Below are positions 1,795 through 25,414 of a stretch of 64,000 bases of DNA, piece after piece. Within the stretch, counting starts at the first letter, position 1. The number at the start of each line of letters is the position of its first letter. The stretch lies in assembly GCF_000378125.1 (NCBI RefSeq), contig NZ_KB899243.1, positions 248,001 to 312,000 on the forward strand, read 5' to 3'. Under the pieces are notes generated by a model, which was not told the origin of the DNA, searched no databases, and saw only the letters and a list, made by a program, of their open reading frames with translations. The translations under genes were made by a program, and so were the position numbers. This stretch comes from Rudaea cellulosilytica DSM 22992 (GTDB taxonomy: Bacteria; Pseudomonadota; Gammaproteobacteria; Xanthomonadales; Rhodanobacteraceae).

Positions 1795-1940
1795 AAGAAT
1801 CTGCCCTCAAAGCGTAGCGAGCGAAGAGAATTTGTGCGACGCCGGAGCACAGGAACCGGAGCATACAAGTAGTATGTGAGGATTCCGAGCACCGCCGGCG
1901 CACAAATTATCGAGCGCAGTAGCTTTGAGGACAGGTTCTT
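1795..1940. repeat. Palindromic intergenic repeat, copy A
   Basis: Full-length copy of the repeat family. The outer arms 1795-1812 and 1923-1940 are complementary at 16 of 18 positions (CCTCAAAG / CTTTGAGG at their inner ends). Inside them come the conserved cores GTAGCGAGCGAAG and TCGAGCGCAGTAG, then AATTTGTGC / GCACAAATT, and an apical hairpin CATAC (1862-1866) / GTATG (1872-1876). It lies between the amidase gene and the FUSC gene, ending 11 nt before the latter's ATG. I know no name for this family. Confidence 0.8.
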
Positions 1941-1951
1941 AGAATTCCGCC

Positions 1952-4057
1952 ATGTTCCGCACCCTGATCGAAATAAAGCCGCGCGACGTGCCGTTCAGCG
2001 TCGCACTGCGCAACGCTGCCGGCTTCGTCCTGCCGCTCGGCATCGGCATCGCCACCGGGCATACGACGATCGGGCTCGGCATCGCCACCGGCGCGCTCAA
2101 CACGATGTTTCTCGATCAGCCTGGGCCATATCGCCTGCGCATGCAGCGCATGCTGCTCGGCGCGCTCGGTGCGGGCCTGTCCGGCTTCGTCGGCGCTTTG
2201 CTTGGCGCGCATGCGATCGCGATGGCGCTGGCGGCACTGGTCTGCGGCGTAGCCGGCGGCATGCTCGTCGCGCTCGGCCCGAATGCGGGGCGCGCAGGCC
2301 TGGCCTGCGTCATCCTGCTGCTCGTCATGGGTGCGGACCCGCGCGACTTCAAAGATGCCGCCAGCGCCGGCCTGCTCGTCTTCGCCGGCGGTCTGATCGA
2401 GATGGGGCTCGCGCTCGCCGCGTGGCCACTGCAGCGCTATCGACCCGAACGCTCGGCACTCGCGCGCGTCTACCGCGAGCTCGGCGCGATCACGCACCGT
2501 CCGATCGCGGCGAACCGCCTCGAACGCGCGCCCCCGGTGACCCAGGGCTTGCTCGACGTCGAACAATTGCTCAACGGCACGCATCGCGCGCGTGGCGCCG
2601 AGATGGAGCGCTTCCGCGTGCTCGCGCGCATCATCGAACGCGTACGCCTGGAATTGCTCGCGTTGGCCGATGTGATCGGCACGTTGCCGGACGATGAGGC
2701 GAAGCACACGCTGCTGCGCCTGCGCGAATATGCCTCGCGCGCACTCGACGGCATCGGCGCGGCGCTCGAGCACGGCACCACGGCCGAGGCGACGAGCGGG
2801 GCGATCGAAGGCTACGAGGCCGCATTCGCCGCGTTCGAAGCACTCAGCCACACCACCGACGCGAGCGACCAGCGCACGCTGACCGTCGCCCTCGCACGCG
2901 CGCAGGCGCTCGGCGGCCAGTTGCGCGCGGCAATCCGCAACGCCGGCCTCGCCGGTGCACGCGGCGAGCTCGAGGCCGAGGAAAAGGAAGCGCGCCTGCC
3001 GGCCATGCTGCGGCCGATGAGCCCGCTGGCGACGCTGCGCGCGAACCTGCACTTGCAGTCGGTCGCGTTTCGCCACGCGTTGCGCCTTGGCGTCTGCGTC
3101 TGCTTCGCAGTGATCGGCGAACGCGCGCTCGGCTACCCGCATGGATTCTGGGTGCCGATGACCACGGCAATCGTGCTCAAGCCCGATTTCGCCGGCACTT
3201 TCAGCTTCGGCCTGCTGCGTGTCGCCGGCACGCTCGCCGGCCTCGTCCTGACTACGGCGCTGGTGCACTACGCACTCGACAACGTCTGGGCACAGCTCGC
3301 TCTGCTAGCGTTGCTCGCGATCGGCTTCCGCATGCTGACGACGATCAACTACGGCCTCGGCGTGATGATGCTGACCGGCCTGATCGTCATCCTGCTCGCC
3401 TTCCACGGCATCGCGCCCGGCGAATCGATGCTCGTACGTGCGATCGCGACGACGATCGGCAGCATTTTCGCCCTCGCCGCCTACGCGCTGTGGCCTACCT
3501 GGGAGCAGTTGCGCCCTGCGCTGGCGACGATGATCGAATCGTACAGAGTATACTTTTCCACTTTGTTCGACGGCGATAGCGATCTGCGCCGCGATGCGCG
3601 CGTGGCCTCGCGCAGCGCGCGCACGAACGCGCAGGCATCGCTCGACCGCGTGCGCGGCGAGCCCAAGCGCGACCTGCGCCTGATCGCACTTGCCGAAAGC
3701 GTATTGGCGAACGCGAACCGCTTCGTGCGCGCTTGCATGGCGCTGGAGGCGGTGCTGCAGGACAGCCGCGAGCGGCCGGCCCAAGAGACGGTGCAGGCTT
3801 TCGCAGGCCGCATCGATGCCGCACTCGGCGACATCGCTGACGGCCTGCGCCACGATCATCCGGTGCAGGTCGAGGGCCTGCGCGCCTGCGAGCGCGAACT
3901 GGTCAAGACGCTGGCCGCAACGCCGCCCGACGGCGAAGCGCACGCCGTCGCCCTCGCGATCGCCGACGCCTGCGACCGCGCTACCGACTCGGTCGACACA
4001 CTCGCACATCTGCTCGACCGCGATGTCGCGCATGCCGCTGCCGGCGAATCCGGTTGA
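1952..4057 (+). CDS. FUSC-family inner-membrane protein (YccS/aromatic-acid exporter-like)
   Basis: A 701-residue membrane protein with two hydrophobic blocks, around residues 20-150 and 366-515, each followed by a long soluble helical stretch. This is the layout of the FUSC/YccS/AaeB group. The second block includes GYPHGFWVPMTTAIVLKPD, the conserved segment of the FUSC domain. Members are thought to export aromatic acids or similar compounds, but the substrate here cannot be read from sequence. The ATG at 1952 lies 11 nt after repeat copy A, so that element would be in the 5' leader if transcription starts upstream of it. No obvious partner genes (membrane-fusion protein or outer-membrane channel) are adjacent. 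Confidence 0.8.
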   Translation: MFRTLIEIKPRDVPFSVALRNAAGFVLPLGIGIATGHTTIGLGIATGALNTMFLDQPGPYRLRMQRMLLGALGAGLSGFVGALLGAHAIAMALAALVCGVAGGMLVALGPNAGRAGLACVILLLVMGADPRDFKDAASAGLLVFAGGLIEMGLALAAWPLQRYRPERSALARVYRELGAITHRPIAANRLERAPPVTQGLLDVEQLLNGTHRARGAEMERFRVLARIIERVRLELLALADVIGTLPDDEAKHTLLRLREYASRALDGIGAALEHGTTAEATSGAIEGYEAAFAAFEALSHTTDASDQRTLTVALARAQALGGQLRAAIRNAGLAGARGELEAEEKEARLPAMLRPMSPLATLRANLHLQSVAFRHALRLGVCVCFAVIGERALGYPHGFWVPMTTAIVLKPDFAGTFSFGLLRVAGTLAGLVLTTALVHYALDNVWAQLALLALLAIGFRMLTTINYGLGVMMLTGLIVILLAFHGIAPGESMLVRAIATTIGSIFALAAYALWPTWEQLRPALATMIESYRVYFSTLFDGDSDLRRDARVASRSARTNAQASLDRVRGEPKRDLRLIALAESVLANANRFVRACMALEAVLQDSRERPAQETVQAFAGRIDAALGDIADGLRHDHPVQVEGLRACERELVKTLAATPPDGEAHAVALAIADACDRATDSVDTLAHLLDRDVAHAAAGESG

Positions 4058-4192
4058 AACCAATGTGATTTGCATCGCTGTGCCGGCACGATCTGCATAT
4101 TGGCTCTGAAAAAATTAAACAAATTGGATCGTGCATGGGGCCAAATGTCGCGTAGCTTAGCTGCCACCAACCTCTACGAGTAACTACTCGCC
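4058..4192 (+). promoter_or_regulatory. AT-rich leader of the TlpA-like gene
   Basis: A 135-bp gap that is visibly richer in A+T than its surroundings (a run of A and T around 4109-4126). It contains an 8-bp inverted pair GCACGATC / GATCGTGC flanking that AT-rich stretch. A promoter for the redoxin gene is likely here, but I cannot fix -35 and -10 boxes with confidence. Confidence 0.35.
4177..4190. promoter_or_regulatory. Perfect palindrome just before the TlpA-like start codon
   Basis: CGAGTA-AC-TACTCG is a perfect 6-bp inverted repeat with a 2-nt centre, ending 2 nt before the ATG at 4193, exactly where a Shine-Dalgarno sequence should be; no purine-rich site is present instead. It could be an operator or a translation-limiting structure. 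The function is not established. Confidence 0.3.
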
Positions 4193-5242
4193 ATGCCCAC
4201 TTCGCTCCGCCATCGCCGAATCACCGGTTTGCTTCCAGGCCTTGCCGCACTGTTGCTCGTTGCCGCGCTGCTCGGCGCAAATGCTCCCGCGCGCGCGGAA
4301 AGCGGACAGGATTTCGCCGCCCAGGCCGGCGACCATCTGCTCGGCCAAATGGCGCCGGCGATCAAGCTGACCACGATCGACGGCAAGACCATCGACCTCG
4401 CCGCTCTGCGCGGGCACAAGGCCGTGTATCTCAAGTTCTGGGCGACCTGGTGCGTGCCCTGCCGCGAGCAGATGCCACACTTTGAAAATGTCTACCGCCA
4501 TGCCGGCGACGACCTCGAAGTCGTTGCGATCAACATCGGCTTCGACGACACGCTCGAACAGATCCGCGAATACCGCAGCAAGCTCGGCATCACGATGCCG
4601 ATCGTGCGTGACGACGATGGCCACCTCGGCGAGCTGTTCAGCCTGCGCGTCACCCCGCAGCATGTGATCATCGACCGCGACGGACGCATTGCCTACGTCG
4701 GCCATCTCGCGGATGCGCGCCTCGAAGCGGCGCTGGCGCAGGCACGCAAGGGTGTCGTGGCGACTGCGGCGACATCGCCCGCGGCAACGGCTGCCGCAGC
4801 GCAGGCGGCACAGACGGCGAAGACGCTCGACGGCAGCGACATCGCGCTGGCCGATCCCGAGCACAAGCGCCGCACGGTGCTCGCGTTTCTGTCGCCGTGG
4901 TGCGAAAGCTACTTCGAGAAGACCCGTCCCCAGTCCGCCTCCCAGTGCAAGGCGATACGCGAGCAACTGAGCGCGCATGGCGGCGACGCGAGCGTGCGCT
5001 GGGTCGGCATCGCGGCGGGACTGTGGTCTTCCGCACAGGATCTGCGCGAATACCGTGACAAGCACGCCGTCAAGGTGCCGCTCGTGCTCGACGGCGACGG
5101 TGCGCTGTTCCGCCGCTACGGTGTGCGTCAGCCGGCAGCGCTGATCGTACTCGACGCGAACGGGCGCGTTCTGCGCCGGCTCGATCCCAGCGCGTTGCAG
5201 GGGCGCAGCCTGGTCGACGCGGCGCTCGCCGCCACGCCGTAG
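4193..5242 (+). CDS. TlpA-like periplasmic redoxin with two thioredoxin-fold domains
   Basis: A 349-residue protein with an N-terminal signal (hydrophobic 12-28, likely cleavage after ARA at 33-35). The first domain has the active site WCVPC at 86-90 and the GK-IDLAALRGHKAVYLKFWATW pattern of TlpA/ResA thiol-disulfide reductases, followed by a cis-Pro region (RVTPQHVI). An Ala/Thr-rich linker (about 185-205) leads to a second thioredoxin-like domain (about 220-345). There the CXXC is replaced by W236-C237 and a distant C252, with a later YGVRQPAALIV cis-Pro segment. Domain one is probably a working periplasmic thiol reductase; domain two may be peroxiredoxin-like or structural. The gene stands alone between the FUSC gene and a convergent HAD gene. 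Confidence 0.8.
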   Translation: MPTSLRHRRITGLLPGLAALLLVAALLGANAPARAESGQDFAAQAGDHLLGQMAPAIKLTTIDGKTIDLAALRGHKAVYLKFWATWCVPCREQMPHFENVYRHAGDDLEVVAINIGFDDTLEQIREYRSKLGITMPIVRDDDGHLGELFSLRVTPQHVIIDRDGRIAYVGHLADARLEAALAQARKGVVATAATSPAATAAAAQAAQTAKTLDGSDIALADPEHKRRTVLAFLSPWCESYFEKTRPQSASQCKAIREQLSAHGGDASVRWVGIAAGLWSSAQDLREYRDKHAVKVPLVLDGDGALFRRYGVRQPAALIVLDANGRVLRRLDPSALQGRSLVDAALAATP

Positions 5243-5261
5243 GCGAGACTGCGCCGCGGCG

Positions 5262-6808: not shown

Positions 6809-8629
6809 CTATTGTCCCGCATTCGCCGGCGCCGCGGGGACGGTCGCAGCAGCGTGGGCACCGACCTCGGCCGGTGCCGGCAGTCCCAGCTTGCGCAGGG
6901 CTTGCATAAGACGCGGATCATCGCGCAGTCTGGGAATCACGTAAGGCTGCTCGTAAACCGCGGCCATGCCGGGATCGCGCTCCGCGACCGCACGGTCGAT
7001 CCATTCGAAGGCCTTGTCAGTATCACCGCGCAAGACATAGACCATTGCTATGTTGGAAGGATAAAGGTCGGCGTCGAGACGGATCATCTCATCGAGGTGT
7101 TGCTGGGCACGCACGTTGTCGCCCTGCACGGTATAGGCGATGGCCAACGCCCAGAGGTGATTGGCGGGATGCGGCTCGGCCTCCGCAGCAGCGATGGCCT
7201 CGGCGAAGCGACCCTGCTCGGTGTAGGCCACCGAAAGAAACGCTTGCACGTTGTGCATCGTCGGCTGAAGCTGCAATGCGCGCTTCAGCTCGGCTTCCGC
7301 TTCAGGCTGGCGCTCCGCCGCCAGGAGGAATTGCCCGAGATAGAAATGGAAGGATGCATTGAGCGGCTCCATCTGCAATGCCTTGCGCAACATTGCAATG
7401 CCTTCACCCAGCGAACCTGTACAAGCCGTCACGTCCGCCAACTGGTAGAGAGTCTCGGCATTCGACGGATCCAGCGCCACGGCCTTTCTCAAACTGGCTT
7501 TTGCGGCCGGATAGTCGAAATCCGTCCATGCCTGGTTGATGCCGAGCGCACCCAGCGCCAGCGCCGAATCGGGCGCGAGCGCCACGGCTTTCTGCGCATT
7601 TGCGCGCGCCTGCGCGCCGACGGTCTTGCGCTCCTCGGCGTCTGCAACCCAGTCGTTGTACCACTGCTGCGCGATCGCCAGTCGCGCATAGGCCAGTGCG
7701 TAATTCGGATCGAGCGCGATCGCCTTCTGGTAGTAATCCACCGCCTTGCGGTAGTCGTCGGGATTGCGGCGCTCGGCGTAATAGCGGCCCTGTAGCATCG
7801 CATCATAGGCGTCGAGATTGCCGCCGGGCGGCTTGTCGCTGTTTTTGATCGCACCGCCGAACACGGTCGCCTTCAGCGCGTTCGCCACTGCCGTCGCGAT
7901 GTCGCTTTGCACGACAAAAACGTCCTTCAACTGATGATCATAAGCCTGCGACCACAGCTGGCTTCCATCGACCGCCTTGACCAGCGATGCCACCACCCGA
8001 ACCTCGTCACCCTGCTTGCGTACGGTACCTTGCAGCAGCGTGGCCACGCCGAGCTTGACGCCGATGCCGGCGGTATCGTCCTGGTCCTTGCCGCGAAAGC
8101 GAAACGAGGAATTGCGCCCGATCACTTTGAGATCGCGCACCTGGCCCAGCGCGGAAATCAGTTCCTCGGAAAGACCGTCGGAAAAATATTCCTGCTGCGG
8201 ATCGCCGCTTTCGTTGAGCAACGGCAACACTGCGATGGACTTGGCCGGAATCGCGGTTGCGCCATCGCTCTTGCGCACGACAAGACGATCCGTCAGCAGC
8301 AACACCACCGCGACAGTCAGGACCGTGATGATCGCGCGATCCAATTTGCGACTGCTCGAACGCACAATCGAGGCATCGGCCGTGATCTCGCTCTCGCGCT
8401 TGAGCCCCTGCGGCGTCCACTCGTAGAACCAGGCGAAGGCGAGCCAGAACGGAAAACCGATCGTCGTTGCGATCAGGAACCAGCATGCCGCCATCTCGGG
8501 CAAGCCAATGGCCGGGCTTAGTTGCGCGATGCCCTGCGCCAGCGCCCACACCGCGCCGATGTAGAGCACGGCCGCGCGAATGACGTTGCGACGCTTCAAT
8601 TCGGACAGGAATGACGGCTGCGTGTTCAT
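6809..8629 (-). CDS. Membrane-anchored TolB-like/TPR protein, paralogue 4 of 4
   Basis: A 606-residue protein. It opens with LKRRNVIRAAVLYIGAVWAL and has three predicted membrane segments (about 17-33, 50-68, 99-114). A TolB-like N-terminal-type domain follows (about 129-265, starting KSIAVLPLLNESGD and including EYFSDGLSEELISAL and GRNSSFRF), then TPRs to the end (for example NYALAYARLAIAQQWY). This is the architecture of CadC-type regulators or TPR adenylate cyclases with the DNA-binding or cyclase head missing, so no catalytic or DNA-binding role can be claimed; a scaffold or sensor role is inference. The ATG (8627-8629) overlaps the TGA of the preceding paralogue as ATGA. It ends DPRLMQALRKLGLP, as two of its sisters do. 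Confidence 0.75.
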   Translation of the reverse strand: MNTQPSFLSELKRRNVIRAAVLYIGAVWALAQGIAQLSPAIGLPEMAACWFLIATTIGFPFWLAFAWFYEWTPQGLKRESEITADASIVRSSSRKLDRAIITVLTVAVVLLLTDRLVVRKSDGATAIPAKSIAVLPLLNESGDPQQEYFSDGLSEELISALGQVRDLKVIGRNSSFRFRGKDQDDTAGIGVKLGVATLLQGTVRKQGDEVRVVASLVKAVDGSQLWSQAYDHQLKDVFVVQSDIATAVANALKATVFGGAIKNSDKPPGGNLDAYDAMLQGRYYAERRNPDDYRKAVDYYQKAIALDPNYALAYARLAIAQQWYNDWVADAEERKTVGAQARANAQKAVALAPDSALALGALGINQAWTDFDYPAAKASLRKAVALDPSNAETLYQLADVTACTGSLGEGIAMLRKALQMEPLNASFHFYLGQFLLAAERQPEAEAELKRALQLQPTMHNVQAFLSVAYTEQGRFAEAIAAAEAEPHPANHLWALAIAYTVQGDNVRAQQHLDEMIRLDADLYPSNIAMVYVLRGDTDKAFEWIDRAVAERDPGMAAVYEQPYVIPRLRDDPRLMQALRKLGLPAPAEVGAHAAATVPAAPANAGQ

Positions 8630-10458
8630 TGGCATGTGAACGCCTGCGGGTCGCTTGCCGCCACCGGGTGGCACAAATCCGGCCAACCGTAGTGCTGCCA
8701 GTAGGCAACCATCCCGATGCGCCGTGCAAAACCCTGGAACGAGGGATCACGCAGCGCCTTGCGCGACCATTCCTCGGGCTGCCATAGCCAGTTGAAATAG
8801 GCGTCCGATAAGCCGCTGTGGCCCTGTTCGTAGAGATCGAAGGAACGCGCAGGTTCTCCGAGTTGCAGCAATAAGGTCGGAGCCCAATTGTCCTCTGCGT
8901 GCGCGTCGATGATTTTCAGTGCCGTCTGCCTTTGCGTCTCGTCGCCGAAGGTGCCGAAATAGATCGTGTGCAGGTCACCTTCGGCGATCCGAGTGCCCAT
9001 CTTGCCGATGGCTTTCACGAAATCGCGCGCGGCGCCCTGCACATCAGCGTGCGCCGCATCGTAGTACTGCAGCATCAAGGCGCCGAACGGCGAATCGGCC
9101 ACGCCGGCACGACGGATGTAGTCCAGCGCACCGGCCTCGTCGCCGATGCGCCAGCGCGTCATGCTCTTGTAGAACAGCAGCAGATTATTGGCAGGATCGT
9201 TGACCAACGCCGCGTCGATTCGCGCTTCGGCGTCGCGCGTGCGGCCCATCGCGGCGAGCTCGTTGGCTGCCCAGTAGTTCACCGCCGAGTTGTCGGGCGC
9301 CTGTTGCAAGGCGCGGTGCATGGGTTCGACCATTGCCTCGAAATGTCGCTGCGAGAACTGGTTGTAGCTCAGCGCGGCGTAAGCCTCCGCATCGTCCGGG
9401 TCGAGCGCCAGCGCGCGCTGCGCGGCGGCATCGGAGTTGCGCCAGCTTTCGCCCCATTCGGCGGCCGTGTACTGTGGCAACACCGCATAGGCGACCGCGA
9501 GCTTGGACCAGGCGCGCGCAAACTTCGGATCGAGCGCCGTTGCCTTCTGCAACAGTGCGATCGCCTGCGGCAGGCTGTTGTCGACCCGCTTGTTGACCAG
9601 CGTCTGTGCGGTGACGAAGTCCGCGTAGGCATCCGCGCTGGTCGTGGCCACCGGCACGAGGCGCGACTGCTCGCTGCCGCTCAAAACGATCTTCAGGCGC
9701 TCGGTGATCGCTCGCGCGATGCGTTCCTGCACGTCGAAGATATCGTGCAGATCGCCATCGTAACTTTGCGACCACACCTCGAAACCATCGCCGGTGCGCA
9801 CCAGGTGCACGCTGATGCGCACGGCATCACCCTGCGTACGCACCGCGCCCTGCAGCACATTGGCGACGCTAAGAGCCTGGCCGATGGTGCGCAGCTCGGC
9901 ATTGTGACTGGCGTAATAGAACGACGACGCTCGCCCGGCGACTTTCAGTTCCTGCACCTTGGCCAGCGCGTTGAGCAATTCTTCGGCGAGGCCCGCCGAG
10001 AAGTAGCCGTGATCGTGCCCCGGACTCAAATCATCGAACGGAAGCACGGCGATGGATTTTCCCGAAGTCGATGACGCGGCATCGCCGCCGAGCCCGCCTT
10101 TGCGCCAGAGGAAGGTATTGGTCAGCAGCAACACCACCGCGATCGCAAGTACGGCGATGATCGCGCGATCCATCTTGCGCCCGGTCGAACGCGTGATCGA
10201 CGTGTCTGCAGCGACCTCGCTCTCGCGCTTGAGTCCCTGCGACGTCCACTCGTATAGCCATGAGAATACGAGCCAGAACGGAAAACCGATCGTCGTCGCG
10301 ATCAGGAACCAGCGCGCCGCCATGTCGGGCAAGCCGATGGCCGGGCTCAGTTGCGCAATGCCCTGCGCCAGCGCCCACACCGCGCCGATGTAGAGCACGG
10401 CCGCCCGAATGACGTTGCGGCGCTTGAGTTCGGCGAAGAACGAAAGTTTCCCGCTCAT
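8626..10458 (-). CDS. Membrane-anchored TolB-like/TPR protein, paralogue 3 of 4
   Basis: A 610-residue protein with the same plan as its neighbours: opening FFAELKRRNVIRAAVLYIG, three hydrophobic segments within the first 115 residues, a TolB-like domain beginning KSIAVLPFDDLSPG, then TPRs. It is the most divergent of the four. The signature EYFSDGL is changed to GYFSAGLAEELLNAL, and the C terminus ends in WQHYGWPDLCHP rather than the RKLGLP ending of the others; that ending is familiar from CadC-like TPR regulators. The function is unknown. It starts at an ATG overlapping the upstream stop (ATGA at 10455-10458) and its own stop overlaps the next start in the same way. Confidence 0.75.
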   Translation of the reverse strand: MSGKLSFFAELKRRNVIRAAVLYIGAVWALAQGIAQLSPAIGLPDMAARWFLIATTIGFPFWLVFSWLYEWTSQGLKRESEVAADTSITRSTGRKMDRAIIAVLAIAVVLLLTNTFLWRKGGLGGDAASSTSGKSIAVLPFDDLSPGHDHGYFSAGLAEELLNALAKVQELKVAGRASSFYYASHNAELRTIGQALSVANVLQGAVRTQGDAVRISVHLVRTGDGFEVWSQSYDGDLHDIFDVQERIARAITERLKIVLSGSEQSRLVPVATTSADAYADFVTAQTLVNKRVDNSLPQAIALLQKATALDPKFARAWSKLAVAYAVLPQYTAAEWGESWRNSDAAAQRALALDPDDAEAYAALSYNQFSQRHFEAMVEPMHRALQQAPDNSAVNYWAANELAAMGRTRDAEARIDAALVNDPANNLLLFYKSMTRWRIGDEAGALDYIRRAGVADSPFGALMLQYYDAAHADVQGAARDFVKAIGKMGTRIAEGDLHTIYFGTFGDETQRQTALKIIDAHAEDNWAPTLLLQLGEPARSFDLYEQGHSGLSDAYFNWLWQPEEWSRKALRDPSFQGFARRIGMVAYWQHYGWPDLCHPVAASDPQAFTCQ

Positions 10459-12233
10459 GGCAATCCCTTGGCATCGGTCGTTGTCGGCAGGCCGACCTTC
10501 AGCGCGAACGCGGCGTAACGGGGATCATGCCGGTAGCGCAGCAGAAGCGCATCGTTGAGCAGGAAGACGATGCCGCCATCGCGTGCGTCCCAGGCGCGAT
10601 CGAGCCACTTGAACGCGTTGTCGGGATCGCGGCGCAATGCGTAGATCTCCGCGATCTGGTACGCCGAGGAGTCGATGTGTTTGTCGATCAGGTTCTGCAG
10701 CGCCGCATCCGCGGCGGCACGGTCGGGCCCGATCTGCAATACCAACGCCAGCGCAACATCGCGCCACATGCCCTGCGACAGAGATTGCGCAATCGCCAGC
10801 GCGGCCGGAAAGTCGCCGCGAAACGTCGCGATGTAAGCTTGTATCACCCGATGCGTGTCCGAACTCGGCTGCAATTCGACCGCCTTGTCGACGGCCGCCT
10901 TCGCCTCATCCAGGCGCCCGTTCACGGCCAGCAAAAGCGCGAGATTCTGACGGGCACCGCTCTGCAACGGGTCGAGCTTCAACGCCTGTTCCGTCAGGTC
11001 GATGGCGGCGCGCACCTGCCCCAGAATTGCCGAACCCCAAGCGTAGGCGACGAGGATGCGCGGATCGTTCGGAGCCAATTCAAGCGCGCGTCGTTGCTCC
11101 ACCTGCGCGCCGCGCCAATCGAAATTGCGGTTCATCATGAGCCTGGCTTGGGTCATGTGCGCCTGCGGCAACATGGGGTTGAGCCGCAAGGCGGTATCGA
11201 TCGCCGACTGTGCCTGCGCATACGTGGATGCCGTGTCGGCGCCGGCGAGGTAATTTCCCGCCAGTGTCGCTTGCGCGTTGCCAAGCCACGCATACGCTGC
11301 CGCATAGCCGGGATCGAGGCGAACGGCATCGTGAAAATGCGCGATCGCCGTGCGCAGATCCGGCTCATTGTTGCGCGCGGTGTAAAACCGCCCTTGCTGG
11401 TAGGCGTTATACGCGGCGAGATTGCCGTTGGGCGGCCGCTCGGATTGCATGGCAACATCACCGTTTTGCAGTAACTTCGCCTTGAGCGCACCCGCCACGG
11501 CCTCGGTGATCTCGTCCTGCAGCTTGAACAGATCGATGTACGGCCGATCGTAACTTTGCGACCAAACGCCGCTGCCGTCCGCCGCTTTCACCAACTGCGC
11601 ATTGATGCGCACCGTGTCGCCGAGCTTGCGCACGCTGCCGGTCAACAGATAGGCGACGCCGAGTTTCAAGCCGATCGCGGCGCTGCCCTCCTTGCTGTCG
11701 CGAAACTGAAATGCGGAATTGCGCCCGATCACCTTGAGGTTACCGAACTGCATCAGCGCGTTGATCAAGTCGTCGGACAGGCCGTCAGAAAAATATTGCT
11801 GGTCTTTGTCGCCGCTGTCGTTGGTCAAAGGCAGCACGGCGATGGACTTGTCGGAAATCGCGGCGCCGTCGCTCCTGTGCGGGATCAGTCGATCGGTCAG
11901 CAGCAGCACCACGGCGAGGCCGAGCACGCCGATGATCCAGAAATCCATTTTGCGTGCAGTCGAATGCGTGATCGACACTTCAGCGGCGACTTCGCTCTCG
12001 CGCTTGAGCCCCTGCGGCGTCCACTCGTAGAACCATGCGAACGCGAGCCAGAACGGAAATCCGATGCCCGCGGCGATCACGAACCAGCGCGTGATCCATT
12101 CAGGTGCGCCAAGCGGCGGCCCCAATTGCGCAACGCCTTGCGCCAACGCCCACACCGCGCCGATGTAGAGCAGGCCCGCGCGGATCACGTTGCGGCGCCT
12201 GAGTTCAGCGAGGAACGAAGGTCGTCCGCTCAT
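10455..12233 (-). CDS. Membrane-anchored TolB-like/TPR protein, paralogue 2 of 4
   Basis: A 592-residue paralogue. The N terminus is FLAELRRRNVIRAGLLYIG with membrane segments near 17-33, 50-68 and about 100-115. The TolB-like domain has KSIAVLPLTNDSGDKDQQYF and GRNSAFQFRDSKEG, followed by about eight TPR-like helical pairs (for example LDPGYAAAYAWLGNAQATL) and the ending DPRYAAFALKVGLP. No enzymatic motif is present. It is most like paralogue 1 at the TolB-like domain, sharing DRPYIDLFKLQDEIT against DRPYIDLFALQDDIT. Start and stop each overlap the neighbouring genes by 4 nt, so it should be translated as part of one message. Confidence 0.75.
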   Translation of the reverse strand: MSGRPSFLAELRRRNVIRAGLLYIGAVWALAQGVAQLGPPLGAPEWITRWFVIAAGIGFPFWLAFAWFYEWTPQGLKRESEVAAEVSITHSTARKMDFWIIGVLGLAVVLLLTDRLIPHRSDGAAISDKSIAVLPLTNDSGDKDQQYFSDGLSDDLINALMQFGNLKVIGRNSAFQFRDSKEGSAAIGLKLGVAYLLTGSVRKLGDTVRINAQLVKAADGSGVWSQSYDRPYIDLFKLQDEITEAVAGALKAKLLQNGDVAMQSERPPNGNLAAYNAYQQGRFYTARNNEPDLRTAIAHFHDAVRLDPGYAAAYAWLGNAQATLAGNYLAGADTASTYAQAQSAIDTALRLNPMLPQAHMTQARLMMNRNFDWRGAQVEQRRALELAPNDPRILVAYAWGSAILGQVRAAIDLTEQALKLDPLQSGARQNLALLLAVNGRLDEAKAAVDKAVELQPSSDTHRVIQAYIATFRGDFPAALAIAQSLSQGMWRDVALALVLQIGPDRAAADAALQNLIDKHIDSSAYQIAEIYALRRDPDNAFKWLDRAWDARDGGIVFLLNDALLLRYRHDPRYAAFALKVGLPTTTDAKGLP

Positions 12234-14017
12234 GGCTGTGTCTTCACGTCATTCGTTGCAGGCAGGCCGAGTTTCCTGCACAACGCCGCGAAACGCGGAT
12301 CGTCGCTGTAGTCCATGACGAACACGGCATAGCGCAGCGTCGGCACGCCGGGATCGTGCTCCGCCAGGCCGCGATCGAGCCATTCGAACATCTGCTCTGG
12401 TTGCTTGCGCTGCGCATAGACCTGCGCGATCTGGAAAGCGCCGTTGACGGCGTATTTTTCGATCAACTCGTTGAGTCCTGCATCGGCCTCAGCATTGTCG
12501 CCATGCGAAAAGTGAGCGATAGTCAGCGCGAAGGTGTGCCAGAACGGAGCGGTTTCGCGCTGCGCGAGGTCGATGGCGGCTCCGGCGTTGCCGCGCAGGA
12601 TTTGCAGAATCGTCAGTTCGCTATAGTTCTGAGCACCCGACGGATTGATCTCGAGCGCCTTGCGTAAGACGGATTCGGCTTCGTCGTAGCGGCCGAGCGC
12701 ACGCAGCGTGCGTGCGAGATAGACATAGTTGACGCTGCTCAGCGGATCGAGCGCGACCGCCTGGCGGCCGAACGTCACGGCTTCGGCGAGCCGACCGAAT
12801 GACGCACTGACGATACCGAGCGAAAACACGTTTCCGGCCTCGTGTGGTGCCAGTTCGGCCGCACGCCGGTATTCGGCTTCAGCCGCGACCAGATCGAGAT
12901 CGACGATCTGCAGCAGGAAGCCGCGCGAATGATGCGCGCGCCCTAGATCCGGCTGCAGCGCCAGCGCGGTCGCTGTTGCCGTGCGTGCGGTCGCGATCAA
13001 CGCTTCCCTTTCTGCGCGGTCCGCCACCGAGAACGCCGCAATGAGCGCGATTTTCGCGCGCGCGAGCGAGGCATAGGCCAGCGCATAGTTCGGATCGATG
13101 CGGATCGCTTCTTTGTAGTATTCGATCGCCTGGCGCATGTCCGCGTCCGTGCTGCGCCTAGCCACGAAGACGCCTTGCAGATACGCGTTGTATGCATCGA
13201 GATTGCCGCTGGGCGGGCGGTCGCTTTGCGTGTTGGCGGCCGCGCCTTCCAGCAGTTTCGTTTTCAACGCCTCAGCGACTTGCCGGGTGATGTCGTCCTG
13301 TAGCGCGAACAGATCGATGTAAGGGCGGTCGTAGCGCTGCGACCAAAGCGTACGGCTGTCGGCGGTGTTTACCAGTTGCGCAGTGATCCGCACCATGTCG
13401 CCAGCGCGCCGCACGCTGCCCTCGAGCAGATGCGTAACGCCGAGTTTCGCGCCGATGGTCTTGCTATCGTCGTGACTGTCGCGAAACTGGAATGAGGAAT
13501 TGCGGCTGATCACCTTCAACCCAGCAAACTGCGACAGCGCGTTGATCAGGTCCTCCGACAGACCATCGGAAAAATACTGCTGATCCTTGTCGGCGCTTTC
13601 GTTGCTCAACGGCAGTACCGCGACGGATTTGTCCGGATTCGCAGAAACAGCGGCGTCGAGTCCCGCACCTTTGCGCCACACGAAGGTGTTGGTCAGCAAC
13701 AGCACCACCGCGACGGCCAATACCGCGGTGATCGCCCGGTCCCATTTTCGCCCGGTCGAGCGAACGATGGACGTATCTACCGCAAGTTCGCTTTCGCGCT
13801 TCAGGCCCTGTGGCGTCCATTCGTAGAACCAGGCGAATGCGAGCCAAAAAGGAAAACCGATCGCCGCGGCGATCAGGAACCAGCGCGTGCCCCAATCCGG
13901 CAAGCCGACGGCGGGACTGAGTTGCGAAATGCCTTGCGCCAGCGCCCACACCGCACCGATATAGAGAACCGCTGCGCGCAGGACATTGCGGCGTCGGAGT
14001 TCGGCGAACAGGCTCAC
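12230..14017 (-). CDS. Membrane-anchored TolB-like/TPR protein, paralogue 1 of 4
   Basis: A 595-residue paralogue, first of the four in transcription order. I place the start at GTG 14015-14017 (VSLFAELRRRNVLRAAVLYIG), because it overlaps the TGA of the upstream DUF6090-like gene by 4 nt and aligns with the other three N termini; the longer open frame upstream only shadows that gene. Three membrane segments, a TolB-like domain (KSVAVLPLSNESADKDQQYF, SRNSSFQFRDSHDDS) and TPRs follow, with the ending DPRFAALCRKLGLP. Like its sisters it has neither a DNA-binding head nor an enzyme motif. A role as a periplasm-facing TPR scaffold is only a guess from topology. Confidence 0.75.
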   Translation of the reverse strand: MSLFAELRRRNVLRAAVLYIGAVWALAQGISQLSPAVGLPDWGTRWFLIAAAIGFPFWLAFAWFYEWTPQGLKRESELAVDTSIVRSTGRKWDRAITAVLAVAVVLLLTNTFVWRKGAGLDAAVSANPDKSVAVLPLSNESADKDQQYFSDGLSEDLINALSQFAGLKVISRNSSFQFRDSHDDSKTIGAKLGVTHLLEGSVRRAGDMVRITAQLVNTADSRTLWSQRYDRPYIDLFALQDDITRQVAEALKTKLLEGAAANTQSDRPPSGNLDAYNAYLQGVFVARRSTDADMRQAIEYYKEAIRIDPNYALAYASLARAKIALIAAFSVADRAEREALIATARTATATALALQPDLGRAHHSRGFLLQIVDLDLVAAEAEYRRAAELAPHEAGNVFSLGIVSASFGRLAEAVTFGRQAVALDPLSSVNYVYLARTLRALGRYDEAESVLRKALEINPSGAQNYSELTILQILRGNAGAAIDLAQRETAPFWHTFALTIAHFSHGDNAEADAGLNELIEKYAVNGAFQIAQVYAQRKQPEQMFEWLDRGLAEHDPGVPTLRYAVFVMDYSDDPRFAALCRKLGLPATNDVKTQP

Positions 14018-14796
14018 GGCTTGTCCTTCGCGAGGCGGCGCAGCGGCTCGCGAATGTACGGGTCGAAATACACCGTCATGTTGCTCAGATCCGTCGCGAT
14101 GTCGGCGATGCGCAGCTGCAGCAGGGCGACGAATCGCGGGTCCTTCCTCAGGATGGCGGCACTGGCCGCGATGGTTTCGGGAGCAAGACCGGTCGCACAG
14201 GGGTAGTCGAGAACCTGCGCAATGCCCGCGTAGTCGCCGATCGGCACGATGCGGTCGCCGCATTTGTCGGCGAGCGAGCGCTGAACCTGGTACGGGATCG
14301 CCGTGCGGAACGCCTTGCGGTATTCCGACTGCATACCGCCCTGTTCGATGCGGTCGCCCAGCGGCAACGTGTAGACATCCATCGCGAGCGCGCGCAGGGC
14401 CGCATCATGAATCAAGCCGATCTCACCGGTCGAAGTCAATTCGTCGTAGGTGGCACGGCGGCGCGAGTTGCTGTTGTATTGCGTGGCGCGGTACGCGGCG
14501 ATCAGCAAAGCGTCGTCGGCTAGCGGCGCCGTGCCGGTCAGCGCGTCGACCGCGCGTGTCGCATTGGCCTGTACCTGGTTGAAATAGCCGATCTGCGTCT
14601 CGTAGTTCCACGCTTCCACGCGCAGGTCGGCCTTGAGGCGTTCGGTGAATTCGGCGGCCTTCTGATTCTTTTGCCGATCTTCGTTCCAGTTCGCCGCTTG
14701 CAAGCCGATGAACACGCCGATGACGACGACGGCCAGTTCAACGACAACGGCCGTCCAGTCCTGGCGACGGAAATTCGCAACGACTCGACGCAACAT
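14014..14796 (-). CDS. DUF6090-like small membrane protein heading the TPR operon
   Basis: A 260-residue protein with one N-terminal membrane segment (about 15-33, VVVELAVVVIGVFIGLQAANW) followed directly by NEDRQK and a long helical soluble domain. This opening (basic residues, Val-rich helix, QAANWNE) is what I associate with the DUF6090 group, whose function is unknown. I chose the ATG at 14794-14796 (MLRRVVANFRRQDW) over one 12 codons upstream. The gene is the first of a minus-strand run whose next four members are the TolB-like/TPR paralogues, and its TGA overlaps the GTG of the first. The gap of about 160 bp upstream, up to the ftsH terminator, should hold the operon promoter. Confidence 0.6.
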   Translation of the reverse strand: MLRRVVANFRRQDWTAVVVELAVVVIGVFIGLQAANWNEDRQKNQKAAEFTERLKADLRVEAWNYETQIGYFNQVQANATRAVDALTGTAPLADDALLIAAYRATQYNSNSRRRATYDELTSTGEIGLIHDAALRALAMDVYTLPLGDRIEQGGMQSEYRKAFRTAIPYQVQRSLADKCGDRIVPIGDYAGIAQVLDYPCATGLAPETIAASAAILRKDPRFVALLQLRIADIATDLSNMTVYFDPYIREPLRRLAKDKP

Positions 14797-17037: not shown

Positions 17038-17661
17038 CTATCCGCGCTTGCCGCTGGCAAGCGCGTAGACCTCCGGGCTGCGCGCACGCGAGGCCTTCGG
17101 TTTCCGAATGCTGACGCGCTCATAGCCCTGACGCAAGCTCTTCAGGTACGCATCATAGTCGCGCCCCTGGAAAAGTTTTATCAAAAACGCACCGCCGGGC
17201 TTCAGGTGGACAGCGGCAAAATCCCTAGCCAATTCAGATAGATGCATTGCCCGTGCCTGATCGGCCACGGTCACACCACTCATATTGGGGGCCATGTCGC
17301 TCAAGACAAGGTCCACGGGCGCCCCGGCCAGCAGCGTTTCGAGCTCTCTCAACACCGATTCCTCGCGAAAATCGCCCTCGATGAAATCGACGCCGCCGAT
17401 GCCCTGCATCGGCAGGATGTCGAGCGCGACGACGCGGCCCTTGTCGCCCAGCTTCTCGCGCACCATCTGCGACCAGCCGCCGGGCGCCGCGCCGAGATCG
17501 ACCACGACCATGCCCGGCTTGAGGATCGCATCGCGCTGCAGCAGCTCCTCGAGCTTGAACACGGCGCGCGAGCGCCAACCCTCGGCCTGGGCGCGCTTGA
17601 CGTAGGGGTCACTGAAGTGCTCCTTCAACCAACGGGCACTGGATTTGCTGCGGGAGGCCAT
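17038..17661 (-). CDS. rlmE: 23S rRNA 2'-O-ribose U2552 methyltransferase RlmE (FtsJ/RrmJ)
   Basis: 207 residues, the usual length. Motifs: SRAVFKLEEL near the start with the catalytic Lys, SAM motif VVDLGAAPGGWSQ, the catalytic Asp in LVLSDMAPNMSGV, and the catalytic Lys in FLIKLFQG. It methylates U2552 of the 50S A loop. The ATG at 17659-17661 (MASRSKSSARW) matches the family; a longer open frame upstream is only translated repeat copy B. That repeat begins inside the start region: its left arm (17658-17678) contains the start codon and the presumed ribosome site, which the far arm (17788-17808) could pair with. Followed by ftsH; divergent from yhbY. Confidence 0.95.
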   Translation of the reverse strand: MASRSKSSARWLKEHFSDPYVKRAQAEGWRSRAVFKLEELLQRDAILKPGMVVVDLGAAPGGWSQMVREKLGDKGRVVALDILPMQGIGGVDFIEGDFREESVLRELETLLAGAPVDLVLSDMAPNMSGVTVADQARAMHLSELARDFAAVHLKPGGAFLIKLFQGRDYDAYLKSLRQGYERVSIRKPKASRARSPEVYALASGKRG

Positions 17662-17808
17662 GAACCAGTCCAAAAACCTACTGCGCTCGGTATTTTGCGC
17701 AGCGGCGGTGCTCGGAATCCTCATTTACACACAAGTGAACTCCGTTTCCTGCGCTCCGGCGCAGCGCAAACTACCTTCGCTCGCTACGGTTTTTGGACAG
17801 GTTCATGG
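17658..17808. repeat. Palindromic intergenic repeat, copy B
   Basis: This copy is in the opposite orientation to copy A. Its 21-bp outer arms (17658-17678, 17788-17808) are complementary at 20 of 21 positions. The cores are CTACTGCGCTCGG and TTCGCTCGCTAC, with inner arms TTTTGCGC / GCGCAAA. The apical hairpin is weaker (TTTAC / GTGAA). It fills most of the divergent gap between rlmE and yhbY, and the left arm includes the rlmE start codon. Confidence 0.8.
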
Positions 17809-17865: not shown

Positions 17866-18162
17866 ATGGCCTTGACCAACACCCAGATCCGCTACCTGCG
17901 CGGCCTCGCGCACGATCTCAACCCTGTCATCCTCGTCGGCAACAAGGGCATCACGCCCGCGCTGATCAAGGAGTTCGACGCAGCGCTCGACCAGCATGAA
18001 CTGGTCAAGGTGAAGATCGCCGGCGACGACCGGCAAGCACGCAAGCAGCAGATCGACGAACTCGCCGGACAGGGCGGCGCCGAAGTCGTGCAGCGCATCG
18101 GCCATGTCGCCAGCTATTTTCGCCGCAACGAGGATGCGCCGAAGATCGCCCTGCCGCGCTAG
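17866..18162 (+). CDS. yhbY: Ribosome-associated CRM-domain RNA-binding protein YhbY
   Basis: 98 residues, the normal length for this single-domain protein. It begins MALTNTQIRYLRGLAHDLNP and has the CRM-domain GXXG-type segment VGNKGITPALI and LVKVKIAGDDR. YhbY associates with pre-50S ribosomal particles. Its divergent position next to rlmE and ftsH is the conserved arrangement in gammaproteobacteria. The gap to rlmE is occupied by repeat copy B, and repeat copy C starts at the stop codon. Confidence 0.93.
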   Translation: MALTNTQIRYLRGLAHDLNPVILVGNKGITPALIKEFDAALDQHELVKVKIAGDDRQARKQQIDELAGQGGAEVVQRIGHVASYFRRNEDAPKIALPR

Positions 18163-18221
18163 AAACTTCTGCTTAACCTACTGCGCTCGATAATTTGCGC
18201 GCTACAGTTATGCAGAGGCTT
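18163..18221. repeat. Palindromic intergenic repeat, copy C (short form)
   Basis: A short copy of 59 bp beginning directly after the yhbY stop. The arms 18163-18178 and 18206-18221 pair at 12 of 16 positions. Between them is the half-core CTACTGCGCTCGATAATTTG, with only a few bases left of the other half. It ends 11 nt before the next ATG, and its right arm contains GAGG. Confidence 0.6.
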
Positions 18222-18232
18222 CCTTTCTTCCC

Positions 18233-18607: not shown

Positions 18608-18614
18608 CTCCGAA

Positions 18615-18648
18615 CCTGTCCTCAAAGCTACTGCGCTTTGAGGACAGG
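18615..18648. terminator. Perfect hairpin between convergent genes; minimal copy D of the repeat
   Basis: CCTGTCCTCAAAG (18615-18627) and CTTTGAGGACAGG (18636-18648) form a perfect 13-bp stem with the 8-nt loop CTACTGCG. The arms match those of copy A and the loop equals the first 8 bases of the repeat core, so this looks like an internally deleted copy. It sits between the stops of two convergent genes and could act as a bidirectional terminator, though there is no long T run. Confidence 0.7.
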
Positions 18649-18651
18649 CTT

Positions 18652-19300: not shown

Positions 19301-19516
19301 AGAACCTCATGAAACCGTAGCGAGCGAAGAGAATTTGCGTGTCGCCGGAGCGCAGGAACCGGAGTGTACGTAGAAGTACATGAGGATGACTCGCCGCATC
19401 CGCGGCTCGCCCTCCGGGCCATTCGCTACGCGAATGTTCGCTTCGGCATCCTGCCCACGCAGTCCGAGCACCGCGGGCACGCAAATTATCGAGCGTAGTA
19501 GGTTTCAAGAGGTTCT
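19301..19516. repeat. Palindromic intergenic repeat, copy E (long form)
   Basis: Arms 19301-19316 and 19501-19516 are complementary at 15 of 16 positions. The cores are GTAGCGAGCGAAGAG and TCGAGCGTAGTAG, the inner arms AATTTGCGTG / CACGCAAATT, and the apical hairpin TGTAC (19365-19369) / GTACA (19376-19380). An extra 70-bp segment (CTCGCCGCATCCGCGGCTCG and on) is shared with copy F only. It fills the whole gap between the kinase stop and the regulator start. Confidence 0.8.
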
Positions 19517-19517
19517 C

Positions 19518-22153: not shown

Positions 22154-23071
22154 GTGCATATCCATGTCCTCGGTTCCGCGGCCGGTGGCGGCTTTCCGCA
22201 ATGGAACTGCAACTGCCGCAATTGCGCCGGCCTGCGCCGAGGCACGCTGCGCGCTCGGGCGCGCACGCAGTCCTCGATCGCGCTCAGCGGCAACGGCGAG
22301 GACTGGCTGCTGTGCAACGCCTCGCCCGACATCCTCGTCCAGCTGAAATCGTTCGCCGCCGCACAACCGGCGCGCGCGCTCCGCGACACGGCGCTGCGCG
22401 CGATCCTGCTCGTCGACGCGCAGATCGACCATGTCACCGGACTCTACATGCTGCGCGAACATCGCGCGCGCTGGCCGCTGTGGACGACGCGGCCCGTGCG
22501 CGAGGATCTCGAGCGCGGCAATCCGATTTTTCCCTTGCTCGATCACTACTGCGGCAGCGACTGGCACGAGATCGCGCTCGACGGCGCGGCATTCGCGATT
22601 CCGCAGGTGCCCGGCCTGCGCTTCACCGCGCTGCCGCTGCGCAGCAACGCGCCGCCGTATTCGCCGCATCGTGACCGACCGATCGACGGCGACACGATCG
22701 GACTCGCCGTCGAAGACATGGCCAGCGGCAAGCGCCTGGTCTACGCACCGGGAGTCGTCGAGATCGATGCGCGGCTGTCGGCGGCTATGCGCAGCGCCGA
22801 CGTCGTCATGATCGACGGCACCTGTTTCCGCGACGACGAGATGATCGCACTCGGCATCTCAAAAAAGCGCGCACGCGACATGGGCCATCTCGCCCAGTCC
22901 GGCGCAGGCGGCATGCTCGAGCAACTCGCACAACTGCCGCCAGCGACGCGCAAGATCCTCATCCACATCAACAACACCAACCCAATCCTCGACGAGGACA
23001 GCGCCGAACACGCCGAGGTGCGTGCGGCCGGCGTCGAGATCGCTTACGACGGCATGGAGATTGAACTGTGA
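22154..23071 (+). CDS. pqqB: PQQ biosynthesis protein PqqB
   Basis: 305 residues from GTG 22154. It begins [21 protein letters not shown], the diagnostic PqqB opening, with the metallo-beta-lactamase-like fold and Cys-rich NCNCRNC segment. It continues with the PqqB segments [38 protein letters not shown] and [16 protein letters not shown]. PqqB is held to hydroxylate the cross-linked Glu-Tyr intermediate. A GTG at 22127 would add nine residues that are not part of the family opening. Its TGA overlaps the pqqC GTG. Confidence 0.94.
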
Positions 23072-23772
23072 GCGCTACGCCATGGAGCCACGAGGAATTC
23101 GAGGCGCGCCTGTGCGAGCGCGGCGCGGCCTACCACATCCATCATCCGTTCAACCGCATGCTCAACGAGGGGCGTGCGACACGCGCGCAGATTCAGGGTT
23201 GGGTCGCGAACCGCTTCTGCTATCAGGTCGCGATTCCGGTCAAGGACGCGGTCGTCATCTCCAACTGTCCCGACCGCGCGGTGCGCCGCGAATGGGTGCA
23301 GCGCATCCTCGACCACGACGGCCACGGCGATGACGCCGGCGGTATCGAGGCGTGGATTCGCCTTGGGCTTGCCGTCGGCCTCGCGCGCGAGGAAATCGAG
23401 GACCAGCGCCACGTCGTGCCCGGCGTGCGTTTCGCCGTCGATGCCTACGTGAACTTCGCCCGCCGCGCGCCATGGCAGGAGGCGGTCTGCGCCTCGCTGA
23501 CCGAACTGTTCGCACCGAAGATCCACAAGGAACGCCTGGCCAACTGGCCGGAGCATTATCCGTGGATCGAATCCGCAGGCCTGCAGTATTTCCGCAACCG
23601 CACGACCCAGGCACGGCGCGATGTCGAGCAGGGTCTGGCGATCACACTCGCCTACTTCGACACGCTTGCCTTGCAACAGCGCGCGCTCGACATCCTGCAA
23701 TTCAAGCTCGACGTGCTCTGGACGATGAACGATGCAATGGCACTCAAGTACGGCATGACGGAGGAAAAATGA
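23068..23772 (+). CDS. pqqC: Pyrroloquinoline-quinone synthase PqqC
   Basis: 234 residues. PqqC catalyses the final ring closure and oxidation of AHQQ to PQQ without metal. Family segments seen in order: [100 protein letters not shown] and [15 protein letters not shown]. The start is a GTG (23068-23070) overlapping the pqqB stop; the stop overlaps the pqqD ATG. Confidence 0.96.
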
Positions 23773-24041
23773 GTGTCGGCATCGCGAGTGTTCCGCAAAT
23801 TGCGCCGGGCTTCCGCCTGCAGTGGGAACCAATGCAGGACGCGCACGTGCTGCTTTACCCCGAGGGCATGGTCAAGCTCAACGCGAGCGCCGGCGAGATT
23901 CTGAAGCGCTGCGACGGCGCGGCGAACGTCGCAGCGATCACCGCCGATATCGAAAGGCAATTCGACACCACGGGCCTGGGCGACGACGTGCTCGCCTTCC
24001 TCGACATCGCCACGCGACAAGGCTGGGTACAGATCGCATGA
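23769..24041 (+). CDS. pqqD: PqqA-binding chaperone PqqD
   Basis: 90 residues, the usual length. The small RRE-type fold is visible as [36 protein letters not shown] and [14 protein letters not shown]. PqqD binds PqqA and presents it to the radical-SAM enzyme PqqE. ATG 23769 overlaps the pqqC stop (ATGA) and the TGA overlaps the pqqE start (ATGA), so translation of C, D and E is coupled. Confidence 0.95.
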
Positions 24042-25201
24042 ACGCCGTCCAGAAAACCGCGCCCGCAGCGGCAATCGGCTCGCCGCACTGGCTGCTGTGC
24101 GAACTGACCTACCGCTGCCCGCTGCATTGCGCGTTCTGCTACAACCCGGTCGACTTCGCGCGCCACGAGGCGGAACTGTCCACGGATGACTGGCTGCGCG
24201 TGCTGCGCGAGGCCCGCGCACTCGGCGCGGTGCAATGTGGTTTCTCCGGCGGCGAACCGTTGCAACGCAAGGATCTCGAAACGCTCGTCGCCGAAGCGCG
24301 TGCGCTCGGCTACTACACCAACCTGATCACCTCGGGCATCGGCCTCAATGCCGAACGCGCGCAGCGGCTCAAGCAGGCCGGGCTCGACCATGTCCAGCTC
24401 TCGTTCCAGGACTCCACGCGCGAGGTCAACGATTTTCTCTCCTCGACGCGCACCTTCGACCTCAAGCGCGAGGCGGCGGCACTGATCAAGGCCAACGGCT
24501 GGCCGATGGTGATGAACTGCGTGATCCATCGCCTCAACATCGATCATATCGAACGCATCATCGAACTCGCGATTGAGCTCGACGCGCAATATCTCGAACT
24601 TGCCAATGTGCAGTTCTATTCCTGGGCGCAGCTCAACCGCGAACAGTTGCTGCCGACACGCGAGCAGCTGCAGCGCGCCGAACGCATCACCCGGCAATGG
24701 CGCGAGAGGCTCGGCAGCAAGATGAAATTGATCTTCGTCGTGCCCGACTACTACGAGACGCGACCGAAGAAATGCATGAACGGCTGGGGCAACATCTTCC
24801 TCACGATCGCGCCCGACGGCACGGCCCTGCCCTGCCACACCGCGCGCATGCTGCCGGGCCTTGCCTTCCCGAACGTGCGCGAGCACGGCGTACGCGAGAT
24901 CTGGTACGAATCCGAAGGCTTCAACCGCTACCGCGGCACCGGTTGGATGAAGGAACCTTGCGCGAGCTGCCCGGAAAAGGAAAACGACTACGGCGGCTGC
25001 CGCTGCCAGGCCTATATGCTCGCGCAGGACCCCGCCGCGGCCGATCCGGTCTGCGACAAGTCGCCGAAGCATGCTGTCGTCGCCGCGATAGTCGACCAGG
25101 CGCAGCAGCAGCGATCGATTGTCGAAGCGAAACCACTGCTGTTCCGCGACCCGAAGAATTCCAAAGCTCTGTCCGGCTTGGGAACCTCTGCTTTACCGTA
25201 G
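24038..25201 (+). CDS. pqqE: PqqA peptide cyclase PqqE (radical SAM)
   Basis: 387 residues. The radical-SAM cluster motif is [13 protein letters not shown] (C27, C31, C34), followed by the SAM-binding [12 protein letters not shown]-terminal SPASM domain has [40 protein letters not shown] and GGCRCQAY, the Cys residues for the auxiliary iron-sulfur clusters. It forms the Glu-Tyr C-C bond in PqqA. The last seven codons and the stop fall inside the left arm and core of repeat copy F, so the tail GTSALP is repeat-derived. The operon has no pqqF protease gene. Confidence 0.95.
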
Positions 25202-25414
25202 CGAGCGAAGAGCCGATCCTATCCAGAACCGGGCGCGTCGCCGGAGCGCAGGAACCGGAGCATACATACGAGTATGTGAGGATGACTCGCCGCATCCGCG
25301 GCTCGCCCTCCGGGTCATTCGCTACGCGATTGTTCGCTTTGGCGTCCTGCCTCCGCAGTCCGAGCACTGCCGGCGCGCAGATTATCGAGCAGAGTAGGTA
25401 AATCAGAGGTTCCC
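25180..25414. repeat. Palindromic intergenic repeat, copy F (long form)
   Basis: Arms 25180-25197 and 25397-25414 are complementary at 17 of 18 positions. The cores are GTAGCGAGCGAAGAG and TCGAGCAGAGTAG; the usual AATTTG part next to the left core is replaced by an unrelated stretch of about 20 bp. The apical hairpin is CATAC (25261-25265) / GTATG (25272-25276). It carries the same extra 70-bp segment as copy E. It overlaps the end of pqqE and ends 35 nt before the phosphatase ATG. Confidence 0.8.

Follow-up and report, generated by a model that had tools for sequence, protein, structure and literature searches.

A mobile, fold-constrained family of palindromic repeats in the genome of Rudaea cellulosilytica

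A 64-kb stretch of the Rudaea cellulosilytica DSM 22992 genome (contig NZ_KB899243.1, positions 248,001 to 312,000; hereafter the window, G000:C3:248001-312000 of a 4.34-Mb genome in six contigs) carries six copies of a palindromic repeat with variable but complementary outer arms. These belong to a real, mobile and fold-constrained element family, for which both covariation of the stems and mobility were observed. We consider it probable that the repeat is a miniature, non-autonomous mobile element resembling miniature inverted-repeat transposable elements (MITEs), and that its active form would be a folded single strand.

All six copies of the original prediction were located where it had placed them. 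Four of them (A, B, E and F) are full elements, and C and D are internally deleted relatives. R1, a covariance model built from 49 training sequences that include copies A and B and no member titled Enterobacterales, matched A, B, E and F in the window at E <1e-5 and nothing else there below 0.08.

Copy A, 1795..1940, plus strand: short form, outer arms 1795-1813 and 1923-1940, core 1814-1922; R1 119.1 bits (A is in the model)
Copy B, 17661..17804, minus strand: short form; R1 109.3 bits (B is in the model)
Copy C, 18163..18222, minus strand: internal deletion derivative, arms and right part of the core
Copy D, 18613..18650, minus strand: mini-hairpin, two arms around the remnant GCAGTA
Copy E, 19301..19517, plus strand: long form, insert of about 75 nt at 19388-19462; R1 65.6 bits
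Copy F, 25180..25413, plus strand: long form, insert of about 75 nt at 25284-25358; R1 32.8 bits, a partial match

Copy B lies in the gap ahead of an open reading frame (ORF) at 17866-18162, and copy F has an additional small hairpin module near 25209-25235 and a direct CTTG repeat on both flanks. Little of the core is left in copies C and D, which retain its right end together with the arms. Mini-hairpins similar to D are L188 and L293, the latter from G005 at the L010 site (L and G numbers are our handles for loci and genomes); such hairpins thus recur, probably as deletion products. The claim that all six copies lie in the first 25 kb holds for the window but not for the genome, in which copies are scattered throughout.

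The left core occurs exactly at 49 places in the genome, compared with none for the reversed control, and at least two of these occurrences (L053, L062) are not elements. The right core, with up to two mismatches, was found at 52 places (control, 1), and copy A as query gave at least 43 matches, the best 40 of 94 candidates having been scored. Pairing left and right cores in the collected stretches yielded 66 candidates, from which five false pairs (L015 minus, L021 383, L037, L038 237 and window minus 277) were removed. The resulting 61 copies are a minimum, since the set, in which L065 was retained despite its unpaired arms, takes in neither partial copies (L043, for example) nor the full copy L187. 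Copies are slightly clustered: of the gaps between 70 positions, six are shorter than 2.5 kb (random mean 2.7, P 0.046).

The arms of the 61 copies are 81-200 nt apart and pair over about 14-18 nt in all except L065. Pairing is well above what chance would give: own-arm complementarity averages 13.3, as against 6.75 for arms swapped between copies (66 candidates, the five false pairs included). The predicted pattern of outer arms that differ between copies yet pair within each was seen. Arms form classes with many members on a loose common consensus. One class, with one mismatch allowed, occurs at 28 places, all inside elements (one being the partial copy L043), and another at 16, of which 15 are inside elements and the last is in the mini-hairpin L188. 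Because all their places lie in elements or in this mini-hairpin, neither class was observed as an independent repeat. The odd arms of L063 and L048 are unlike any other in the list of 61 copies, yet their pairing is near-perfect. Long forms have their insert at one point in the tip region, and in some copies small hairpin modules stand in for part of a stem. A sequence like the long-form insert seems, by eye, to lie on the opposite side of the tip in Rhodanobacter L126.

A hairpin of about 140 nt is predicted for the element, comprising outer arms, asymmetric internal loops that surround GTAGCGAGCG / GCGCAGTAG, middle stems, and a tip stem framed by GGAG/TGAG. Alignment A1 was made from the copies with an inner length of 106-111, apart from L033 and L050, whose arms were misaligned, and comprises 34 of the 61; on it RNAalifold gave 50 pairs, 24 with changes on both sides. 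Of 1697 pair cells in A1, 96.2% pair, compared with 83.2% after shuffling and 27-43% with partners slid, and cells changed on both sides number 237 versus 74. Covariation was assessed with a purpose-written, tree-aware null in which Fitch changes are re-dealt over a FastTree tree, using a G-test with average-product correction at E<0.05 (60 simulations on A1, and 30 on a second alignment, A2, in columns with at least 60 letters). Under this null, ten column pairs of A1 were significant, including seven of the 50 structure pairs: five lie in the arms (out of 17 there) and two in the tip (67x82, 68x81). Of the three off-structure pairs, 67x81 and 68x82 adjoin those of the tip and 35x113 falls within an internal loop. 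A2 spans several phyla and comprises 91 copies: A, B and 89 of the 102 named copies that were usable (the 13 excluded were mostly near-duplicates). It gave 11 significant pairs. Ten of these are among its 42 structure pairs and are spread over the arms, the middle stems (48x124, 56x116, 60x111) and the tip (70x103, 79x94, 80x93). GGAG, TAC, GTA, TGAG, AT and CGAGCAC are invariant in A2 by construction of the search pattern and were given no weight.

The stems covary, and the genome-wide test proposed in the original prediction, which had read the paired changes as folding maintained by selection or by the way the element is copied, bears this out, since the signal survives the tree-aware null. 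Between these two, the conserved asymmetric internal loops tend to favour selection. The apical difference between CATAC/GTATG and TGTAC/GTACA proved real, and more states exist, such as TTTAC/GTAAA.

The core changes little between copies, while the base and tip turn over quickly: on A1 the mean pairwise difference rises from 0.11 in the core to 0.34 in the tip region and 0.51 in the arms. Cores less than 2% different were found in 24 copy pairs, and in 20 of these the arms differ by at least 30%, about as much as those of any pair. Pairing is kept despite this change, and therefore both arms must change together. Exchange between copies would be expected to produce mismatched arm classes, and none was found among the 61 copies except the unpaired L065. 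Gene conversion of the core is an unlikely cause of the decoupling of arms and core, as the hypervariable tip is the linear middle of the homogeneous core.

Sites without the element, which the original prediction had suggested looking for in related genomes, are present in congeners. At the site of copy B, flank adjoins flank in G001, G003 and G005 with neither element nor hairpin, and G010 has an element with other arms near this site. Copy C is absent in G003, G005 and G010, with other sequence at its site in G001, and copies D and E are both absent from their sites in G001 and G003. Sixteen element-free junctions were built from this genome and queried against four congeners, and 12 were spanned, not all cleanly, in at least one (L009, L010, L014, L016, L018, L020, L036, L039, L046, L048, L063 and L067); for L019, L025, L027 and L049 no spanning match was found in the congener loci examined. 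The sites of L018, L039, L009, L014, L046, L020 and L036 are element-free in one to three congeners each (that of L036 not cleanly in G005). The cleanest is L018, where GGGCGAA-TCAA-(element)-TCAA-CC in this genome corresponds to GGGCGAATCAACC, with a single TCAA, in G003. The reverse case is seen near the L020 site, with CAC-AGAT-(element)-AGAT-GC in G005 versus CACAGATGC, with a single AGAT, in this genome.

Exact 4-bp flanking repeats were found at 12 of the 51 copies (among the 61) with a usable anchor, as against a shuffled mean of 2.63 and a maximum of 7 in 1000 shuffles. Without the TAG-flanked class the count is 9 of 39 (shuffled mean 1.18, maximum 6), and repeats of 3 bp (6 versus 3.86) and 5 bp (1 versus 0.35) are at chance level. 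The target duplication is short, and 4 bp is our best estimate of its length. The element inserts with its arms into sites that lack element and hairpin in sister species, and because of these element-free sites and the 4-bp flanking repeats we conclude that the arms arrive with a MITE-like mobile element. It is short, has terminal inverted repeats and no transposase gene, and leaves empty sites and a target site duplication, if one of non-uniform length; by anatomy and empty sites it is a MITE. A survey of orthologous filled sites in 19 stretches returned two informative cases (L285 and L293, both at the L010 site) and one different insertion (L286); in eight of the remainder the flanks enclosed other sequence, and the last eight either matched a single flank or were spanned. 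L285, an older copy in G003, has decayed arms. Its tip hairpin is wholly different (CCCGGT...ACCGGG) and its core otherwise similar.

The family has relatives in Gammaproteobacteria, Betaproteobacteria and Chlorobi. A scan of named genomes gave at least 110 stretches, among Xanthomonas, Dyella, Rhodanobacter, Microbulbifer, Aeromonas, many Enterobacterales, Betaproteobacteria and Chlorobiaceae. Within the order of R. cellulosilytica, a 1e-6 match is present in at least 35 of the 200 genomes; with 17 candidates scored per genome and strict filters, this figure is too low. Such a patchy distribution suits a mobile element. R1 matches at E up to 0.01 number 11 in Yersinia proxima, 5 in Pectobacterium carotovorum, 5 in Serratia inhibens and 11 in Klebsiella oxytoca (150 candidates scored in each, the weakest matches being short or doubtful). 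With an enterobacterial copy as query, 5375 of 5426 Escherichia coli genomes match, at a median of five places. In E. coli K-12, a copy (74.9 bits) fills most of the qseG-glrK gap, where the record examined shows no feature. Several enterobacteria have a copy between dnaN and recF, as recognised by eye (L137:4947-5090, L077:4860-5010, L150:2552-2705, L108:271-424); in E. coli 7/2 the two genes overlap by one base at this junction. The element also forms tandem arrays (G070:C43:31730-32276, G084:C3:975674-976159 and L142:5566-5842) with periods of about 210, 180 and 124 bp.

Under the mechanism that we propose, an enzyme supplied in trans would bind the folded strand via its conserved middle and internal loops, and the arms and tip would need only the ability to pair. 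Source copies would keep the fold, since copies unable to fold would stop moving, and surviving copies would consequently covary. Dead copies would lose core or arms through slippage at the hairpin, as C and D may have done. The mover would thus read a folded strand, and reading of the fold in the middle, with base and tip merely checked for pairing, fits the contrast between arms and core best.

Several observations weigh against this proposal. One copy, L065, has arms that do not pair; 12 of the 17 arm pairs in A1 individually fall short of significance; and the tree-aware test approximates R-scape with a tree built from the same alignment. An exact 4-bp repeat is lacking at 39 of the 51 copies, and duplication length varies, L039 fitting 2 bp and L009 no simple duplication. 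The G005 sites of L067 (L233) and L036 (L237) hold short arm-tip palindromes without a core (AGAACC-T-GGTTCT and GGAACC-TG-TTC), which may be deletion remnants or pre-existing. No mobilising enzyme was found in the two families searched, PF01609 and PF01797; the former has no match in this genome and the latter has one:

L304:1423-2196 (G000:C4): Y1 transposase-like protein, 257 aa, the only PF01797 match in the genome

We take this protein to be RAYT-like. Within 1.5 kb of its gene R1 gave nothing better than E 0.8, and a RAYT partner was rejected, there being a single gene in the genome and no copy beside it.

Ordinary double-strand terminal inverted repeats, each arm class matching a different transposase, would be complementary without any folding. 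Such an origin of the arms would accommodate the arm classes with many members, the short duplications on insertion, and the confinement of the two arm classes to elements of the family (28 of 28; 15 of 16 plus the mini-hairpin L188). It leaves unexplained the covariation of the tip and middle stems, far from the ends, as well as the near-perfect pairing of the L063 and L048 arms, which resemble no other listed arm, and PF01609 is without a match here; we regard it as unlikely, if with an appreciable chance. The hairpin might alternatively be kept as an RNA that serves the host, whether as an mRNA-end or processing element, a terminator, or a small RNA like sX9. This catalogued small RNA does overlap the element, some copies sit at gene boundaries (by eye, dnaN-recF in several enterobacteria), and Yersinia ERIC hairpins alter mRNA stability according to excerpts of PMC2229807. 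A host function is nevertheless quite improbable in our view, given that insertions differ between sister species and that T tracts after the hairpin are rare (6 of the 61 copies on one strand, 3 on the opposite strand), counts by which most copies are not intrinsic terminators.

Mutation alone could make the arms complementary if imperfect palindromes were corrected by templating, one arm being copied onto the other without selection. Both arms would then change at once, which would explain their rapid turnover, and the deletion derivatives show that the hairpin is prone to slippage. Templated correction should, however, render the whole palindrome perfect, yet the internal loops stay asymmetric and conserved (search-pattern letters excepted), and the older G003 copy at the L010 site has decayed arms; we hold this explanation to be improbable. 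Least credible of all is that the core inserts into palindromes already present, terminators or others, so that the arms would belong to the targets. Excerpts of PMC2229807 describe such targeting of dyad-symmetric sites for YPAL/RU-2 of Yersinia, and the core-less palindromes at the G005 sites of L067 and L036 equal arm tips. The other sites examined at which the element is missing hold no hairpin. The arms follow a loose consensus, and at the two cleanest sites the duplicated letters enclose them. Part of the core survives in the solo hairpins D and L188, and the G005 palindromes may accordingly be remnants too. Insertion into pre-existing hairpins is unsupported at most sites and retains its very small probability through these two palindromes.

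Our preferred account, a MITE-like element that moves as a folded strand, could be extended to a class of structure-addressed mobile elements crossing phyla. In that class an enzyme would move a folded single strand, reading its conserved middle and checking base and tip solely for pairing, and both arms would be renewed at once between rounds of movement; members would include Xanthomonas sX9 and the unannotated qseG-glrK copy of E. coli K-12. This extension is speculative and we would not expect it to hold. MITE-like palindromes such as ERIC have been known for more than 30 years and, to our knowledge, what moves most of them, and whether their fold matters, is largely open. The present family brings together a fold backed by covariation, sister-species sites that lack the element, and a wide range of arm variants on near-identical cores, and it is testable in E. 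coli K-12.

Two other features of the window may be mentioned. An 84-nt inverted repeat, 83% complementary with arms 367 nt apart, lies at 58042-58576, and four similar ORFs of about 590-680 aa stand in tandem on the minus strand at 6809-14263.

No description of the family was recognised in the literature searched, in which the six core strings occur nowhere. The E. coli copies are possibly the 'RSA' repeats of E. coli K-12, a name unconfirmed by the literature search. The original prediction, which knew no name for the repeat, was nearly right: the family was not found described, but one side of the element overlaps the catalogued sX9 of Rfam (RF02228). At the gathering score, an Rfam search of the window gave no match. 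Below it, sX9 reached 35.3 and 23.5 bits against the required 44 in copies E and B, the former at:

19310-19381, minus strand: sub-threshold sX9 match in copy E, 35.3 bits

In Xanthomonas, copy L083 is overlain by an sX9 match of 93.9 bits, the only one at gathering among 14 loci, and sub-threshold matches occur in 7 of the 10 enterobacterial loci of the family tried. The sX9 model covers 76 nt, roughly half the length of the hairpin, and presents them as the gene of a small RNA, which in L083 lies on the strand opposite to the orientation used here. sX9 is catalogued as a Xanthomonas small RNA (Rfam; PMC9029176, in excerpt), and the excerpted text of this 2022 survey places it among the small RNAs with most instances, counting several per strain. 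Treatment of sX9 as a mobile element was not met in the partial texts of the literature searched, a set that does not include its discovery paper. The overlap suggests that sX9, catalogued as a small RNA, belongs to a widespread mobile repeat, a point that matters for small-RNA counts in genomes.

ERIC (IRU, RU-1) of enterobacteria is described in excerpts of PMC2229807 as an intergenic, MITE-like long stem-loop of about 127 bp with target site duplication. It is like the present family in its size and long hairpin, and the tip hairpin GGAG-stem-TGA is similar in both. R1 gave one E. coli ERIC copy only 12.2 bits (E 0.1), over the tip alone, whereas the family's own E. coli copies scored 72-86 bits in the same search. 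An nhmmer comparison of a sequence profile (A3) with the ERIC consensus and that one locus found no match. Membership in ERIC, expected from the similar tip, thus failed on homology over the 127-bp consensus with both R1 and the sequence profile, and E. coli carries both families. On the TA termini and TA duplication that mark ERIC the picture is mixed: one arm class is mostly flanked by TA, but the conspicuous duplication here is 4 bp.

YPAL/RU-2 of Yersinia, likewise a small palindromic mobile repeat with target site duplications and empty sites, targets dyad-symmetric sites (PMC2229807, excerpts). It differs in sequence, by an eye comparison only with the 168-nt sequence of PMC2759123 Table 1b, and in its duplications of 3-26 bp, made at dyads. 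REPs, as excerpts of PMC3733652 state, bear a GTAG tetranucleotide. GTAG also flanks the core of the present element, and the genome encodes one Y1 transposase-like protein, as in a GTAG-tagged REP/RAYT system; here, by contrast, GTAG lies inside covarying arms and insertion duplicates target letters.

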